The position numbers and the translations under genes are program-made. DNA of 64,000 nt, taken from positions 23,739,294 to 23,803,293 of the forward strand of contig NC_063155.1 in NCBI RefSeq assembly GCF_020921035.1. Reading direction: 5' to 3'. The notes under the pieces were generated by a model. The model was not told the DNA's origin, made no database searches, and was given only the letters and a program-made list of their open reading frames with translations. Position 1 is the stretch's first letter; the number at the start of each line of letters is the position of its first letter. The stretch is from Rhodamnia argentea. Taxonomy: Eukaryota; Streptophyta; Magnoliopsida; Myrtales; Myrtaceae. This document shows positions 2,895-20,858 of this stretch, in pieces.

Positions 2895-3557
2895 TCAATT
2901 CACTGCTGCGAGAAAAGCCCTCCCGGGCTGCCTATTAGCTAGAGGGCCGTGGCACCCCAGCAGCTTCGCGTTAACTCCGTCGGGGACGATCCGGCTCTCC
3001 TGCTTCCACCTAAGATAGTCCGCTCGGCTGAACTTGGTGAATCCCCACTTGCGGCTCACGATAATCTTCTGCCTCCCCGGGAACTTGAACTTGGCCCTCC
3101 TAAGAGCCTCCTGGGCGTTGTTCCCGTTCGTGTCCTTGCATCGGACGGAGAGGAGGACTTGGCCGATGCTGACCCTGGCGCAGGTCCCCTGAGGCTTGCC
3201 AAAGGCGCCTCTCATCCCTGTCTGGAGCCTATCGGCCCCGGCACACGAAAGCATCTTGTTGATGCGGAGGACATGGAAGGGGTGGACGCGCACCCTGAGG
3301 TGGAAGGCGTCCTTTCCTGCAAACTTGGCCATGTACTTGTTGCAGGCGATGCGCGCGGCCTCGAGGGCCTCGCTGGACACGTTCTCCTTCTCCCAGGAGA
3401 CGAGGTGGACGCAGAACGGGAACTCATCGACCCCCTTCTTCTTCATGCCCACATCGTAGATCCTGATCTTGGGATCAGGGACACCTCTGCAGTACCTCGA
3501 CTTTGGATACGGCTTGTTCTTGATTTGCCTGTAGCATCTCGCGGGCCTTCGACCCAT
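2895..3557 (-). CDS. RPL10: 60S ribosomal protein L10 (uL16, QM-like)
   Basis: Encodes 220 residues in one uninterrupted coding exon, within the usual size of plant RPL10 (about 216-221). This is the cytosolic large-subunit protein uL16, which sits near the peptidyl-transferase and tRNA sites and is loaded late in 60S assembly. The start is the ATG at 3557-3555, opening [20 protein letters not shown], the family's conserved N-terminus; a longer frame upstream lacks family similarity. Other family motifs visible are [53 protein letters not shown] and [17 protein letters not shown] splice acceptor lies eight bases before the ATG and pairs with a donor at 4391, giving an 826-bp 5'UTR intron, a common plan for plant ribosomal-protein genes. 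Another L10 family member in the genome could be functionally redundant. The identification is firm. Confidence 0.97.
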
Positions 3558-3565
3558 GGCGTCTC

Positions 3566-4391
3566 CTAAGCACCCAAAACACAAATATTACAAAACATAA
3601 AGGCGAAAAAACTATGAAGATACAGTCATTGACGATGCAAAACTATACGAGAACAGGTACATATATTACAAAATTCTTCAGGGTTATTCCCGCCACGAGG
3701 AAAATGCAATCGAGATGAACAATAAATTCGCCAAGATCGAAGCTCCCTCAGAATAAAGATTTTCAGCATTTATGCTCAGACAAGGCTGAAACTTTACATA
3801 TGTAACAATTCAATCATCGGGAGCCACGAGAAAACCAAGATAATCCGCCGACCGAGCTTGATCCGCAGACCAAAAAAGATAATCTCGCACACGCACGTCG
3901 CACATCGGTTATAATCAGGATGCATTTTTTTGCAAGACAAAGTTCTCTTCATGAAAAAAAAAAAATAATACTGAAGCAGAGGCCAAACAATTATCCAGTA
4001 ACGACAATGCAATTAAATCCAAGGCTGCGTTTGTCGCGAAAAACAACAAGTGAGTTAGAAAAGCTTTTCTGAAAAAATGACACCACATATTTTCGGTTTA
4101 ACTCCTGAAGCACATGCGTGAATCTACAATGATCCTATCGCCTTCTCAGCAGCTAGCATCATAACAGCAATTACCACGAAGACAGATGCAAACCCTACGT
4201 TCCCGAGCACGAGGCAACGCTCATCTTATCCTACGCTCGGCCCGGCGTTCTATTAGCTGGATATTCAATATAGAGACGCGCAGGCAGCAAGCGGGAGACG
4301 AGAAATCGTCGGCGCTACGATCAGCATTTCACATCCTATCGAAACAACAGAAACGAACCGCATCGGAAACGAAAGAGTCCGCCCCGTTTAC
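3566..4391 (-). other. 5'UTR intron of RPL10
   Basis: On the minus strand a donor (GAAGCAG|GTAAAC) at 4392/4391 and an acceptor (TGCTTAG|GAGACGCC) at 3566/3565 bracket AT-rich sequence with T-runs. The acceptor is only eight bases before the RPL10 start codon. Leader introns in plant translation genes often raise expression, which is inference here. I saw no convincing snoRNA inside it. Confidence 0.65.
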
Positions 4392-4635: not shown

Positions 4636-5576
4636 GGAAAAATTTCAAAAAAGGGCCGAAGTCTTTTTATTTTCTCAAATAAGAACCCCAAATGAATCTT
4701 GTTTTAAATAAGGGTCTGAAGTGCCCTCATTTTTTCAAACAAAGATCTGAAATGAACGTTGTTTCAAATAAAGACCCGAAGTGATTATGAAATTTCAAAA
4801 AATGGCAAGATTTCAAAAACATTTCGATATTTTTCTATATTTGATTTTTTCCTTTTTATTAATTTTTTTCTTTTTTCTATTTCTTTAAAATTTAACAAAA
4901 AAAATTTTTTAAAGTATACAGAGGCGGGAGGCTCCCGCCTCTAGCCACCGCTCCACTGCCGGGGAAGAGGGGGGGCGGCGCCTCAAAGAGGGCCGGAGAC
5001 CCTACCGCCCTGAGGCGAGGGTTAGCCGGCCCTCTCCTAGATCTAGGCGGGAGGTCGCCGGCTCCCGCCCTGACCAGGGGAGGGCGCGCAACCCCAACCT
5101 TGGTCAAGGCAGGGGCCGTTGATCCCCACCCAAGTATGGGCGGGGGTTGCCGATCCTCATCCAAATTAGGGAGAGGGCCCGACCCTCTCCAGATTTTGGC
5201 AAGGGCTTGGCCCTTGCCTTTGGTCAGCGAGATCGTTGACCCTCACGAAGGATCCGGCAACATCGCCGACCTTCGTCGCCCCCACCAATAGCGGGTCGAC
5301 CGCCATAAGCAGGGGGAGGAGCCCTCCTGTCGGTGTGGTTGTTTTTCCTTTTCATTTTTAAAAACCAGAAAAGGGAAAAATATACTATAAATAAATCAAA
5401 ATGAGAAATGACAAAAATGCCCTTTAGATCGGGCTTTTTTTTAAAATTCTATAGCCACTTCAAGCCCTTATTTGAAACATATTATGCAACTTCAAACCTT
5501 TATTTGAGCAAGATTCATTTTGGGCTCTTATTTTAAAAAAATGAGAGGACTTCGGACCTTTTTTTGGAATTTTTTC
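4636..5576. mobile_element. Mutator-like TIR element A (non-autonomous)
   Basis: The left end reads GGAAAAATTTCAAAAAAGGG from 4636; the right end near 5576 is its reverse complement with changes. Homology continues inward for well over 100 bp, with alternating GAAGTG / CAAATAAGGG blocks in both arms. Such long TIRs are typical of Mutator-like elements. The core (about 4920-5340) is GC-rich (GGCGGGAGGCTCCCGCC and relatives), with no transposase and no gene fragment that I recognise. It shares TIR type with the element at 5654-6805, but the cores differ. Confidence 0.6.
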
Positions 5577-5829
5577 TTATTTTTTTAGGATCCAATCTTC
5601 CCTATTAATAGGAAAATTCTCGTACTTTTGGAATTTATTCTATTAAAAAATTTGGGAAAATTTCGAAAAAGGGCCTCAAGTCCTCTCTATTTCTCAAAAA
5701 AGAGCCCGAAGTGGAATATGTTTCAAATAAGGGCCCGAAGTGCCATATTTGTTTCAAAAAAGGGCCTAATCGGGGATAGTTTGATCTTTTGACATTTTCT
5801 AATTTTTTCCCATTTTCCTTTCCTTTTTC

Positions 5830-6085
5830 TCCTCTCTCTCTCTACGCTCTCCGCTTCTCCTTCTTCGCCTTCCTCCTCCACCACCAACCTCGCCTCCTCC
5901 TCTCTCAGCAAATCTACGTCAACAAGCGGCTCGCCCGCAACGACACCACCAACGACAACTTCACCGAGGACTTCGCTTGCAATGGCCTCCGCAACTCCTG
6001 CCGCTCTTATGTCACCTTTCGATCCACCCCTTCTACGCCTCCTTCGTCTCCATCTCCTACCTCCTCGACTCCCGGCCGATTACAA
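5830..6085 (+). pseudogene. captured LysM receptor-like kinase (LYK4/LYK5-type) ectodomain fragment
   Basis: The plus-strand frame at about 5850-6030 gives a hydrophobic leader (LRFSFFAFLL), then QQIYVNK, a D/N-rich spacer, and FACNGLRNSCRSYVTFRS. This matches the start of mature LYK4/LYK5-type chitin co-receptors: QQPYV, then CNG, then SCxSYLTFRS. The continuation FYASFVSISYLLDSRP (about 6029-6080) corresponds to the family's PPYxxxxSIAxLL segment but lies in another frame, so the copy is broken. LysM domains, transmembrane segment and kinase are absent. It lies inside the Mutator-like element and is interpreted as a captured first-exon fragment. It could still be transcribed, but nothing here shows that. 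Confidence 0.8.
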
Positions 6086-6580
6086 CCTCCATGACAAGAA
6101 TAAGATGGCCTCCAGTTCATCGAGGACATCACAGTTGCCGACGAGGTCCGGAGGCGGGTCCTCATCGAGATCCTCCGCCACAATGCTCGCGTCGTGTACG
6201 TGTACCGCCATGGCCTCGACGGCCGGACCGATTGGGAGTCCTTCAAGAAGACCATGCCCGTAATCACCTACGAGGACCTCTAGCCGACCGTCGCTCGTAT
6301 CGCCCGGGCGATAAGTCTCTGATCCTCTGCTCTCACCCCATTTCAGAGTTCCTCACCAACTACAGAACATGGCGGTTTTCTCGATTCTTGATTTTTCCGG
6401 CGGGTATGGGCCGCTTTTTCTGGTGAAATGGGCAAAAATGGGTGATTCTTGCTTCTTGTCAAGCATTTGCTGGGTCTTTGGTAAGTTGGGTGGATTCTTG
6501 ATTTGGTGCGGTTCGGGGACGTCTAGAGGAGAGAGCAAGCTGATGCCCACCATTGAAGAGAAGCTGAGGCCGGCGATGAG
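6086..6580 (+). pseudogene. captured GH3 (auxin amido synthetase family) N-terminal fragment with intron
   Basis: Plus-strand frames give LQFIEDITVADEVRRRVL, EILRHNARVVYVYRHGLDGR and SFKKTMPVITYEDL, followed by a stop near 6281. Then come GDKSLILCSHPISEFLT (about 6309-6359) and GTSRGESKLMPTIEEKL (about 6518-6568). These match in order the N-terminus of group II GH3 acyl-acid-amido synthetases (FIEDVT, VLxEILSRNAxVEYL, MPVITYEDI, SNPISEFLTSSGTSxGERKLMPTIEEE). The gap at about 6360-6517 falls between EFLT and GTS and looks like a retained intron with decayed borders. The nucleotide-binding and C-terminal parts are absent. It directly follows the LysM-RLK piece, so two unrelated genes are juxtaposed. 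Confidence 0.85.
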
Positions 6581-6805
6581 TGAGAGAGGGGAGAGGAAAA
6601 AGTAAAGGAATAGGAAAAAGAAAAGAAAAGGAAAACAGAAAAATAAAAATAATAAATTTTAAAAAGTAAAAGACCAAAATATCCTCGATTAGGCCCTTTT
6701 TTGAAACAAATAGGGCACTTCGGGCCCTTATTTGAAACAGATTTCACTTCAGGCCCTTTTTTGAAAAATAGAAAGGACTTGGGGCCCTTTTTTGAAATTT
6801 TCCCC

Positions 6806-7707
6806 AAAAATTTTAATCCTTCAATTAGAAGAGAAAATCAATTCAATTTACTACTATTCCTTTTCCAAATGAAAGCAATTCTACGAATGTAAATTCACGA
6901 AAATAAATAAAATGCTAAAGCATTTAAATTTTCCTGCTGTATTCTTTTTTTTTTTTTTTATAAGTCCTATCTCTACCTCTTTGTTTTTTTTTTATAAGTC
7001 CTATCTCTACCTCTCTTTGTGGAGCACGAAGGTCAAACCCCAGAATCGCATGCCTATTAGCAATTTTTCCCTTATATTCTCGCTAAGTTGAAATAACTCG
7101 CTCGTGAATAATATAAGTTGAAATGGTAAAAAAAATTATCCTTTTTTTATTCTCGCTCGTGAATAGTGCTGGAACATCTGGCAATTTCCCTAATTTATAT
7201 TTCTCAAGTCGAGCATTTTGAATTTTTTTTTTTTACTGAAAGTATGGAAGCATACGGATATTGCTATGTAAATTAGCATATAACTCTTACAATCATTTTT
7301 CGAAATATAGATGATATTTAAAATTTTAACAAGACATTAAAATAAAATACAAAATCGTGTCATAAGATGTTGGACCGAGTTGCTAAGCCCGTGAAAAAAA
7401 GTGATCTCAAAGTGCCAAGTAATTTCTCAAGCGTTGAGTGGATGGAGAGAGGCATGTCGCAAGTCGCAACCGGGGCAAGCATTCAATCCACGAGTCGGCC
7501 TGAAGCGAATATCGCACCACGCACAAACGGCAACTGAAGTTCATTCCAGAAGAGTAAAAAAAAAGATAAAAACAAAACTGATTCGACCAAGTCTTCGACC
7601 CAACACAAATGCGCATCCGCAGTTTCAAAATAGGAAACAAGATAAATGTAACACAACAATGAGCTGAAGATAAGACTCCTGAAAACATCCGAGGGGCTAC
7701 TCTTCAA
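6806..7707. other. spacer between the Pack-MULE and RPL21
   Basis: AT-rich, with T-runs. A short tandem duplication at about 6947-7017 repeats TTTATAAGTCCTATCTCTAC, each copy preceded by a T-run. The last few hundred bases probably include the RPL21 3'UTR. No other gene or RNA is recognised. Confidence 0.4.
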
Positions 7708-14004: not shown

Positions 14005-16994
14005 CTATGTTTCCCTTCTGTTAGACCTCTTACGAGGCGCTGCAGCAGCGGCAGCATCTTCCTTCTCATCCTCGTCTTCCTTGTCCCCTTGGCTACCTTG
14101 GTTGTTGGAAGTCTCAGCAGCCGCTTCATTCCGTGTCTCTGCTACATTGGCCTTCAAAATTCACAGGCAAGGAACGAGATCAAAGACCATTCAATCATGC
14201 AGCATAAATTGGTCCAGGAGAAGTCTGTAATAGTTTGTTAGAAATAGTACATAACAAGTACTGAGCACATACCGCAGGTTTCTTGCCGCCAAAGAGGAGT
14301 TTCAAGAAAACCGTCAGGATGATAACCGCAATAGACCCCAGTACACCCATTGCTATATTTGGCTGTTCCTCAGCTTTCTCGATGAGTTCCTGCAGATACA
14401 AGATTCAGTCATCGAAACTAATGGAAATGAGCAAAATACAAAGTTAATCTACATAAGATGACCATAAAGGTATTGTCCAAGCATGCTTACACACCAAGAT
14501 CTTAGGCTTGTATGGCTCCAATAAAGGAACATCTGCTACCTTGTAGAGGACATCAAATACCTTTTTCTGGAAGCATCATTTGAGAAGCAAATCAGACATT
14601 TCGCCCCAAATCAGTAAAACCAAAATTCAGACACTGAAGGGAGTAAGGAACCTACATGTATGGCTGAGAGTCCATCGGAACCAGTGGCTTTATCCTCTTC
14701 CTTTTGTTTCTCCTTTTCCACTTCAAACTTGGGTTTCCATGCTGTTAGCCTGTATGACTCTGCCGACTTCTCATCACTTGCGATCAAGATACTGTCGAAC
14801 AAGATTCCATCTTGCATTGTCCAAATCTCAATACCAATTGCAGCTATTGGCTCAAAATTAGGTCTTTCAAGCTCGAAGTAGTCAGGATTCGGGATCTCTT
14901 GAGGTTTCCAGATGCCCTTATAGTTCGGGTTATCAATTAGAGGAGTATGCCACTTCCCTTTATATGCAGGGTTCCTCTTCATTGGCCTCTTCCACTCACC
15001 GCATCCAGGTGCTGTTGCACACTTGGGGTTGTCAACCTTGGGAGGCTCAAATTCACCATCTTCCTCGTCATCCCAATCCTCAGGCTTTGTTGCTTCAGGA
15101 TCATCAATCTCCTCAGGCTCATCATCCAACCAACCTTCGGGTTTCACTGCATCTTCATCAACAATTTCCATCGGGGCATCCTCATCCCAATCATCTGGCT
15201 TCACAGCATCGGGATCTGGGATCTTCGCTCGCTCATCCCAATCCTCTGGCTTCTTATCTTCTGGGTCGGGAATTGTCTTGGGTGGGATGAGCGGCGGCTC
15301 GAAGTCTTCAGCCGAGAGGAAATTAGCCTTCTTCTTCTCCTCACCATCTATCAATATCCTCAGTTCATTATCAGGCTTCAATACAGCAGTGTAGACATGA
15401 GAGAGTTTGTCGTAGGGCACAGATGGAGGGTACTTGAGATGGTGTTCGACGTACTCCCCAGTTTTGGGGTTTTTGTGCTTGAAAATGAAATGCACCTTGT
15501 TGGTAGCGCCACATTTGTCCGGCCCAAACATTATAGTGTATGGAGACTCATTATCAAATTCCTTGACTTTCCATCCAGCATCCTGTGGACGCAGATACTT
15601 CAAGTACGCACCACCACATTCAAGCCCACTCTGGAGTCGGACTTCATACTGTAGAACTACAGTTCCATCCTTAAGACTCACAACATCGTCAAGCTCATTC
15701 ACAATCGCGTACTTCTTTGCCTTCTCACTGACAAGAAGACCATAATCATCATGTCCCTCACTTTTGGAGTGCTTCCACACACCTAATACAAGAGTACACA
15801 GAGACACTAAGTTTGAAGCCATGTAAAAGCTATCCAACGTGCTTCATATAAGTAGAAAAAATTGCACCTACAAGGCTTCTACAGACACATAAAATTCTCA
15901 AGAGCACAGTGTATTCTGCAATGTCCAAATGACCATGTAAGTGTCCATGGCTTTCGTATGTGCTTCAAACACATCAGCTCATTCAACCATAACAATCACA
16001 AAAGCCAAATTCCAAAACGATATTTTCACAGATTGTTCAAGACCGCATGAGGAAAACCCCTGCATACTCAAAACTTGTTAAGTCTCATGCCGCATAGAAA
16101 TAGATCCTTGACCAGAAAACCGCAGTGCTTGTGATCTGTCAAATAATACCTTCACCAAAAAGACTACGAATATAAACAGACACTATGCGTCATCATGGTC
16201 CATGCCACCCTAGACTCTTCTTGATACCATCATTGATTGTTAATTGTGACAATTGCTTGAAAATATTGAACTAGTTATGAACAGCCATGTGCCACGCTAA
16301 AAAGAGCTTCTTTGTTCATGCCAAAATCTTACCTTACTCTTTCCAAAATCTTACATCACTTCATGTACACACAATCCATGATTTAGATCGATCATTTAAT
16401 GAGAAATCAGGCTAAAGCAAAGTTTTGGGCAATCCTACTATATATGCTAGTTAATCAGAAGCCACATATTCCTACCAATAGACCCATGCAACAAAGGCCC
16501 AAGAGCCACAGTTCCATCTATAAAGAGCGAAAGCACAAATGAGTAAGGCATTCTCTTAGAACATCAGAAAAGCATATACAGAGGAAAATACAGGACATAT
16601 TGCTGGAGCATTTCCAATCAAGGACGTCACTATCATGGGAGCATGACCACGTTCCAGCTCGAAAAGGAGGAAAGCAAATCTAAATGAACTGACAAGCGCA
16701 GCAGCGCAAGGTCGAGCACTAAACGGAATCGGTACCTTGGTAATCTCCCTTCTCTGACACGACCCATCGTCCCTCAAAAGCCTCGTCGAAGGATTCGTAA
16801 AAGATCTACAAATCACCAAAAGACAAATCAAATCCCGTCGCAATAGACGCACGTCCACACGTCAAACGAAACAAAATGAACCGTCGAGCACGTCCACCCG
16901 AAGAACGCACCACATCAGAAGCGCAGATCTGGAAGCTGATCAGCAACACCGTCAACGCCTGAGCCAGCAGACGATTCCGCCTCTCCTCCATCAT
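14005..16994 (-). CDS. calnexin, copy 1
   Basis: ER membrane lectin chaperone that binds monoglucosylated N-glycans on folding glycoproteins. Six coding exons on the minus strand: 16994-16911, 16805-16736, 15782-14656, 14566-14495, 14389-14273 and 14151-14005. All join in phase to give 538 residues (about 530 is usual in plants). Visible parts are a signal peptide (LLAQALTVLLISFQICAS), the lectin start ([17 protein letters not shown]), [15 protein letters not shown], a P-domain at about 220-356 with motif-1 repeats ([15 protein letters not shown] and kin) and motif-2 repeats ([20 protein letters not shown]), a transmembrane helix at about 462-483 (IAMGVLGSIAVIILTVFL), and an acidic cytosolic tail ending RKRSNRRET. 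A second ATG directly follows the first. It is nearly identical in plan to the copy at 18680-25129. Confidence 0.95.
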
Positions 16995-18679: not shown

Positions 18680-20858
18680 TTAAGTTTCCCTTCTGGTAGA
18701 TCTCCTGCGAGGAGCAGCAGCTGCCTCTTCCTTCTCGTCCTCGTCTGCCTCGTCTTCACCGCCACCTTGACCGTCGGAAGTCTCGGGAGCTGTTTCACTC
18801 CGTGCCTCCGGCACATCGACCTTCAAATGGCAGCAAAAGAATTGCTTCAACTGTTCCAACAGATCTCAGGCTAAAATTAGCAAAATGGGGATAGGTCATG
18901 CACATACCGCTGGTTTTTTCCCACCAAAAAGGATCTTGAAGAAAAACGACAAAATGATTACCACAATGGAGACCAGTACACCAACCGTTATATTCGGCTG
19001 TTTCTCTGCCTTCTCAAGAAGATCCTGCAAGGACAAAAAATTAGTTTTAAGTGAATAAAGACCAAATTAAGCTGTTGAAAATTGCATATTAAGCTTACTG
19101 AGAGAATTGGGAGGATAACCATACCAAGATCTTAGGTTTATATGGATCCAGTAAAGGTACATCAGCTATCTTGTAGAGGACGTCAAAAACTTTCTTCTGG
19201 AAGTGTCACCCGAGGAACTCCTTTTCAGAATAATACTGAAAATAATAGTAAAACAAAAAACTTCAAAAGCTAAAAGGGATCAACACTTACATGGATGGCC
19301 GAGAGATCATGGGAATCAGTGTCTTTATCCTCCTCCTTTTGCTTCTCCTTTTCAACTTCAAACTTGGGTTTCCATGCTGTTTCCCTGTATGTCTCTGCTA
19401 CCTTCTCATCACTTGCAATTAGTATATTGTCAAACAAAATTCCATCTTGCATTGTCCAAATCTCAATGCCAATGGCAGCAATAGGATCAAACTCGGGTCT
19501 CTCAAGCTCAAAGTAATCGGGATTTGGGATCTCTTGAGGTTTCCAGATGCCCTTGTAGTTCGGGTTATCAATGAGGGGAGCATGCCACTTCCCTTTATAT
19601 GCGGGGTTCCTTTTCATTGGCCTCTTCCACTCACCGCAACCAGGTGCTGTCTCACACTTGGGGTTGTCAATTTTGGGAGCCTCCCACTCCCCATCTTCCT
19701 CATCGTCCCAATCCTCAGGCTTCGTAGCTTCAGGGTCATCAATCTCCTCGGGTTCGTCATCCAACCAACCTTCGGGCTTCACTGCATCTTCATCTACAAT
19801 TTCCATCGGGGCATCCTCATCCCAATCATCTGGCTTCACTGCATCGGGATCTGGGATCTTCGCTCGCTCATCCCAATCCTCTGGCTTCTTATCGTTAGGG
19901 TCAGGAACTGTCTTAGGTGGGATGAGTGGCAGCTCAAAGTCTTCAGCCGAGAGGAAATTTGCCTTCTTCTTCTCCTCACCGTCTATTAATATCCTCAGCT
20001 CATTATCAGGCTTCAATACAGCAGTGTAGACATGAGAGAGTTTGTCGTAGGGCACAGATGCAGGGTTCTTGAGATGGTGTTCCACGTACTCTCCAGTTTT
20101 GGGGTTTTTGTGCTTGAAAATGAAATGCACCTTGTTGGTTGAACCGCATTTGTCTGGTCCAAACATGATAGTATATGGAGACGTGTTATCAAATTCCTTG
20201 ATTTTCCATCCAGCATCCTGAGGTCGAAGATACTTCAAGTATGCACCACCACACTCGAGCCCATCCTGGAGTCGAACTTCATATTGCAGGACAACCGTGC
20301 CATCCTTAAGACTCACAATCTCATCAAGTTCGTGCACAATTGCATACTTCCTCGCTTTCTCACTGACAAGAAGACCATAATCATCGTGTCCCCCACTTTT
20401 GGAGTGCTTCCATACACCTGAATCCAAATACCAGATAGATATTAACCGCAGAATTGACAAAGAAAACTATTTGGTACGGTGCATAACACATTCAAAAGTT
20501 AAAGCATGAAGCATTATGCAGATAATTCTGTGTTATGGAACCACAGAATTCACCATGGCAAATACAAATGGGAATCCTAGATGAACAAGTAACGATCTTC
20601 CCATTCATGTGCGCTTCATCCTTGCAAGCAAAGGGTATCTCCAAACAGAACAACAGTGTAACAAGTCCTTACACCATGACAATCGTAACAGTAACAGATG
20701 GCCTAAACTAACCAGCCCGGCCAATTGACAGCACACACCTCAACTAGAGAAGTAAATGCAGGAAATAATAGACATAGCAGCCAGATAGCGGGTTGAATAT
20801 TCGACGAGCAGGACATTTCTGGCTATCCATGCTCCAAATGTATTGGCAGTTGGATGTG

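Follow-up and report, generated by a model that had tools for sequence, protein, structure and literature searches.

A multicopy Pack-MULE family of Rhodamnia argentea with a cargo fused from fragments of a LysM receptor kinase gene and a GH3 gene

In the genome of Rhodamnia argentea (Myrtaceae), a segment of little more than one kilobase combines, between inverted repeats, pieces that resemble the 5' ends of a LYK4/5-type LysM receptor kinase gene and of a group II GH3 gene, which raises the question whether it represents one mobile element, a young gene, a regulatory locus or a chance neighbourhood of unrelated sequences. The window analysed here comprises 64,000 nucleotides (NC_063155.1, positions 23,739,294 to 23,803,293, forward strand), and positions given without a contig name refer to it. 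With a probability of roughly 0.93, the segment is considered to belong to a non-autonomous Pack-MULE family present in many copies, with a fused cargo that constitutes silenced passenger DNA and not a gene. A preliminary description of the window, made from its letters, had proposed a single Mutator-like element with a LYK and a GH3 piece, a proposal borne out by the donor loci, the terminal inverted repeats (TIRs), the target-site repeats and the recurrence of one junction in 24 copies.

Inverted-repeat detection delineated two arms of 140 nt at 5651-5790 and 6668-6807 with 91% complementarity. Because the left arm used as a search query placed the end of the right arm at 6804, the TIRs were set at 137 bp (left, 5654-5790, plus strand; right, 6668-6804, minus strand; 91.2% identity), longer than the approximately 115 bp originally proposed, and the element at 5654-6804, that is 1151 bp. 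The termini are GGGAAAATTT-type ends. Comparison of the flanking 9-mers identified a target-site repeat at 5645-5653 and 6805-6813 with agreement at 8/9 bases; together with the long TIRs, this provides the target-site duplication of 9-11 bp seen in MULEs, which recurs with at most one mismatch in the family and in other elements discussed below. In the longest listed reading frame across the element (149 amino acids; 207 codons from stop to stop), no transposase was recognised by eye. With fragments of host genes whose donors reside elsewhere in the genome, the element has the composition of a non-autonomous Pack-MULE.

Another element, whose termini are similar and whose interior is GC-rich (4636-5573), ends 80 bp upstream, and a 34-bp direct duplication with 97% identity lies just downstream (6946-7013). 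A ribosomal protein L16p/L10e-type frame is located at 2898-3587 on the minus strand; the Pack-MULE lies upstream of it, about 2 kb from the 5' end. On the same strand, two closely alike calreticulin-like frames (14614-15843 and 19273-20466) apparently reflect a local gene duplication, with the Pfam assignment made on 19273-20466 only and the likeness of 14614-15843 judged by eye.

The first part of the cargo (5835-6077, plus strand), as defined by donor alignment and protein match, derives from a LYK4/5-type gene and spans a partial signal peptide and the ectodomain into LysM1. Its reading matched a LysM receptor-like kinase at E=4e-4 in a protein search, and a Pfam scan of the piece itself gave no domain and no LysM match. 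The donor was located at C2:30098147-30098404 on the minus strand, inside an open frame of 662 codons with LysM1, LysM2, LYK4/5-type LysM3 and kinase domains. Donor and window copy are 84.6% identical over 260 columns, while the next-best LYK relative lies far below the donor at 41% amino-acid identity. The assignment to a signal peptide and first ectodomain segment of a LYK4/5-type protein consequently stands with regard to origin and a donor in the same genome, but the window copy has lost the start codon, along with a 126-156 bp stretch kept by 17 older copies, and the piece stops within LysM1. Approximately 70-77 bp of the LYK 5'UTR are absent from the chimera; a spliced intron was dismissed as the cause, as no GT-AG borders were seen by eye and the LYK-only element introduced below keeps the stretch. 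A 478-bp element with similar termini (L041 in reverse orientation, 2236-2713), at which no clear target-site repeat was seen by eye, is situated on the upstream side of the LYK donor at a distance of about 190 bp from the first base captured.

The remainder of the cargo, 6072-6565 with the junction bases counted in, follows in the same orientation and comprises exon 1 and intron 1 of a group II GH3 gene together with the beginning of its exon 2. Protein and Pfam matches as well as donor alignment define the exon 1 piece (6078-6359, plus strand), which contains a stop codon and frame-shifting gaps; donor alignment defines intron 1 (6360-6511, plus strand, borders set by eye) and the start of exon 2 (6512-6565, plus strand). 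The reading at 6110-6283 had its best PDB matches in GH3.6 (E=9e-18) and GH3.5 (E=2e-14) and matched the Pfam GH3 family at 1.5e-11, above the cut-off. A donor with the same intron 1 was found at C2:28562888-28563398, where exon 1 matches Pfam GH3 at E=1.8e-30; it is 81.6% identical to the window copy over 512 columns, intron included. The next-best GH3 relatives show nucleotide identities of 67% and 70%, and a single 59-bp piece reaches 78%. Both likely donors thus reside on contig C2, 1.5 Mb apart, and each of the two loci holds just one of the pieces. The GH3 N-terminal identity of this part and its shared strand with the LYK piece, as initially read, are confirmed, and the parent loci invoked at that time have been found; the intron is indeed retained, but in the window copy, as judged by eye, mutations have altered the dinucleotides at both of its splice sites.

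The two pieces meet at 6072-6077, where alignment revealed 6 bp common to both donors, one base of which is mutated in the window copy. This microhomology at the switch is visible in 10 copies aligned with both donors, an alignment that also establishes the chimeric nature of the cargo, a feature present in some Pack-MULEs and not required of them. The LYK and GH3 codon frames are out of register across the junction. Throughout the 23 near-complete copies, the match to LYK stops at donor position 3348-3354 and the one to GH3 sets in at 3389-3390, and one copy split in two (L033 and L034) agrees with them. At the other end of the cargo, a query with GH3 exon 2 gave 19 element rows among the matches listed, outside of which several copies fall, and all 19 end by exon base 57. 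As judged from these shared breakpoints, a single origin of the fused LYK/GH3 unit is the simplest reading.

How far the unit has travelled can be read from its copies. A DNA search of the genome (346.66 Mb, 74 contigs) with 5830-6600 as query returned 36 places. Twenty-four of them represent the 23 near-complete copies, two the copy split by about 5.2 kb, two a copy with internal deletions, one of which runs across the junction (L035), two the LYK-only element (L037), one a 3' fragment (L038) and two the donors, with the last three located in two other GH3-like loci. The same junction is consequently found in 24 copies, and with L035, which also has both pieces, the unit occupies about 25 places. 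Target-site repeats of 9 bp with at most one mismatch flank 16/23 near-complete copies, 13/23 with perfect repeats; the latter include two homopolymers and represent 12 different sequences, since two copies (L023 and L026) share one. Seven copies have no such repeat at the strict position, although one of the seven becomes perfect after a one-base shift. As a control, mispaired 9-mers matched with at most one mismatch in 20/2162 cases, as compared to 40/47 pooled elements, which consist of the 23 family copies and 24 sampled elements of the same TIR type outside the family. From the shared join and the site repeats at 16 of 23 copies it follows that the unit was most likely fused a single time and transposed thereafter; the same cargo at many different target sites substantiates movement after capture and with it the original suggestion that the unit could be spread.

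Not every copy represents an insertion of its own. L023 and L026 have their site and flanks in common, and L018 and L019 on C8 the right flank; with these shared flanks both pairs look like segmental duplicates, so that the 23 copies correspond to about 21 insertions. Both L018 and L019 also carry an insertion of about 0.9 kb in the left TIR. Six copies (L009-L014) form a close group; it includes the window copy, to which the other members are 94-95% identical, and is devoid of the stretch of 126-156 bases, LYK start codon included, that is present in the other 17. These 17 are 81-87% identical to the window copy, and 12 of them keep the LYK start codon.

For the origin of the family, the following course of events is proposed. 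A Mutator-like element would have copied the 5' end of the LYK4/5-type gene and the 5' part of the GH3 gene between its TIRs, and the pieces were probably joined by template switching at the short microhomology during repair or replication. The fused unit would subsequently have been mobilised by a transposase supplied in trans, and its copies may have become methylated and silenced with the cargo as passenger DNA.

Whether both fragments were acquired together is a question on which the LYK-only element L037 (C3:5400100-5403300, about 885-2148) bears. It has the same TIR type, its LYK sequence runs about 170 bp beyond the point where the chimera switches to GH3, and it keeps a 5'UTR stretch missing from the chimera. 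When donor LYK sequence past the junction was used as query, three places were found, namely the donor, L037 and a 45-bp piece on C9. The latter (C9:7541991-7542035) is 96% identical to the LYK donor and begins almost exactly where the L037 LYK match ends. A LYK-only element might accordingly have been formed first, with GH3 added later in replacement of the rest of the LYK sequence, a refinement of the preferred reading for which the same TIR type and the continuation of the sequence through the junction point speak, and which is given somewhat less than even odds, since L037 perhaps derives from an independent capture of the LYK gene. Among the sites compared in the LYK part, L037 and the chimera agree against the donor at 6, L037 and the donor against the chimera at 3, and 25 are unique to L037; 186 are identical in all three, and 12 ambiguous sites were dropped. 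L037 could be the kind of intermediate that lies behind the chimera, or an independent capture.

Could the fusion be a young chimeric gene that encodes a secreted LYK-GH3 protein? The LYK start codon survives in 12/23 copies, four copies have frames of 104-107 amino acids through the LYK piece, and in L019 a frame of 266 amino acids extends through GH3; equally, the aligned GH3 exon of L018 and L019 is free of stops and frameshifts. The join is out of frame, however: the four LYK frames end in an out-of-frame tail, L019 reads its LYK part in the wrong frame, and when the longest ATG-started frame on the plus strand is taken for each of the 23 copies, none (0/23) reads both pieces in their own frames, so that the in-frame join with a start codon expected of a functional chimeric gene is not found. 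In addition, the start codon has been lost in the subgroup of the window copy, and a frame-shifting gap at GH3 nucleotides 230-238 is common to 20/23 copies; as the stretch is missing in the other three, the gap was probably already present in the common ancestor. Copy-to-copy ratios of the dN/dS type amount to 0.88 for LYK (23 copies) and 0.59 for GH3 (22 copies). A neutral simulation with the observed context-specific rates (60 runs each, on a star tree in which shared ancestry is ignored) gave 0.66 (sd 0.07) and 0.62 (sd 0.04), respectively, and the observed ratios do not lie under this control: LYK is above the neutral value and GH3 within one sd of it, a pattern other than that of purifying selection. 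Constraint on the GH3 cargo, to which the ratio of 0.59 might have been attributed, is rejected in view of the neutral value of 0.62. A chimeric gene is therefore regarded as highly improbable, and, as far as the reading frames tell, the LYK/GH3 cargo looks non-coding.

Transitions concentrated at CG and CHG sites are the expected signature of plant DNA that has long been methylated. With substitutions pooled across related copies and the donor taken as ancestral, transitions amount to 325/2124 (15.3%) at CG, 133/915 (14.5%) at CHG and 302/4307 (7.0%) at CHH sites, with 217/4532 at A or T, and transversions to 493/11878. This decay pattern suggests that the copies are silenced. It equally speaks against the element as a small-RNA source that would tune the LYK and GH3 donors through long-TIR transcripts that fold back and are diced to siRNAs. 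This alternative draws on the long TIRs, on 21-mers identical to LYK donor sequence in 21/23 copies and to GH3 donor sequence in 22/23, on the longest exact donor matches of the window copy (31 and 24 nt) and on Pack-MULEs possibly encoding small RNAs, as stated in a published account (PMC8277862); some of the shared LYK 21-mers, on the other hand, probably stem from CT-rich signal-peptide sequence, and the alternative is deemed unlikely. The further step, in which siRNAs from copies with 21-mers to both genes would link silencing of an immune receptor to silencing of auxin homeostasis in trans, is less likely still. Least probable of all, to the point of being negligible, is that the TIRs stem from two neighbouring elements that enclose either plain genomic sequence or a local duplication in a degenerate state. 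The element with similar termini 80 bp upstream might invite this reading, but many copies occur in the order TIR-LYK-GH3-TIR with their own target-site repeats, and the donor loci hold one piece each. That both TIRs delimit one element, as first described, is upheld by the agreement of the flanks at 8/9 bases and by the five copies at 94-95% identity that are equally organised elsewhere. Silenced passenger DNA in a multicopy Pack-MULE family remains the preferred reading.

The TIR type extends beyond the LYK/GH3 family. A genome-wide search for the terminus pattern with at most one mismatch gave 221 forward and 195 reverse matches (416), compared to 0 for the backward control. Twenty-four further elements were examined, of which 13 come from a set of 40 TIR matches that had been scored and 11 from pairs among 100 of the 416 termini; chosen for good ends, they do not represent a random sample. 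In 24/24 of these elements the 9-bp target-site repeats differ at no more than one position. They form five cargo groups, three with protein matches, and the TIR type is thus found on at least five other cargo sets. One group (L047, L053, L054 and L068) carries an HLTF-like HIRAN region (PDB E=1.8e-6; Pfam 1e-4, under the cut-off), another (L058-L060, L065 and L066) a patatin-like cargo (PDB E=2.4e-15; Pfam 3e-5, under the cut-off, in the highest-scoring of three frames) and a third (L061-L064) a polygalacturonase-like cargo (PDB E=7e-5; no such Pfam match in two frames). For the remaining two groups (L045, L046, L048-L052, L055 and L056; L057 and L067), Pfam gave no match in four frames, one each from L050 and L055 and two from L057. 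Searches with the HLTF-like and the polygalacturonase-like cargo matched 18 and 17 places, respectively, of which about a dozen each are long, donors counted in. The genome is rich in MULE transposase domains, with 150 of 474 candidates scored; an autonomous partner with matching TIRs was not found among 100 of the 416 termini. The only pair noticed there at a distance of more than 2 kb, L058 (4.3 kb), has the patatin-like cargo, and no transposase was recognised in it by eye.

Pack-MULEs of rice were reportedly treated by Jiang et al. in 2004. According to a later account, 36% (481/1337) of rice Pack-MULEs are multicopy with distinct target-site repeats (PMC8277862), and some yield chimeric transcripts, as stated in another (PMC13317346). 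As in rice, the family of the window consists of non-autonomous Mutator-like elements with host gene fragments; it differs in donors and lineage and in one two-gene fusion present at about 25 copies. The tomato PM-ZIBP family, as far as the text and part of its table indicate, includes 14 copies (13 with tandem TIRs, one with single TIRs) of about 0.9-1.4 kb with AT-rich target-site repeats of 9-10 bp (PMC3310237). Both are multicopy Pack-MULEs with gene fragments, but PM-ZIBP, in the same text, has one donor and mostly tandem TIRs, in contrast to the two donors and single TIRs here. Segments of several host genes in one mobile unit are also described for maize Bs1, which is presented as a retrotransposon with a transcribed and translated chimera (PMC13317346); the window element shares the several host-gene segments in one unit, but it keeps an intron, has DNA-transposon-type termini, and no intact fusion frame was found in it. 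In animal Pack-TIRs, microhomology at breakpoints has been interpreted as pointing to template switching (PMC8277862). By these accounts, Pack-MULEs, including multicopy ones and those with chimeric transcripts, are an established class, of which the LYK/GH3 family is a clear example of a known event. No earlier report of a LYK/GH3 Pack-MULE family was found in a partial survey of the open-licence literature.

What distinguishes the family is a combination: both donors have been identified, the copies number about 25, there is a candidate intermediate, and the TIR type, to which the family itself points, recurs on several cargo sets. As a natural document it shows cleanly how sequences of two unrelated genes were brought together in one transposon, most likely in a single event, and subsequently spread. 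One genome preserves the donors, the microhomology, a possible intermediate with a single gene, copies that differ in age and a signature of decay, and with donors, junction, intermediate and age series at hand, the order of capture and its mechanism become testable in relatives.
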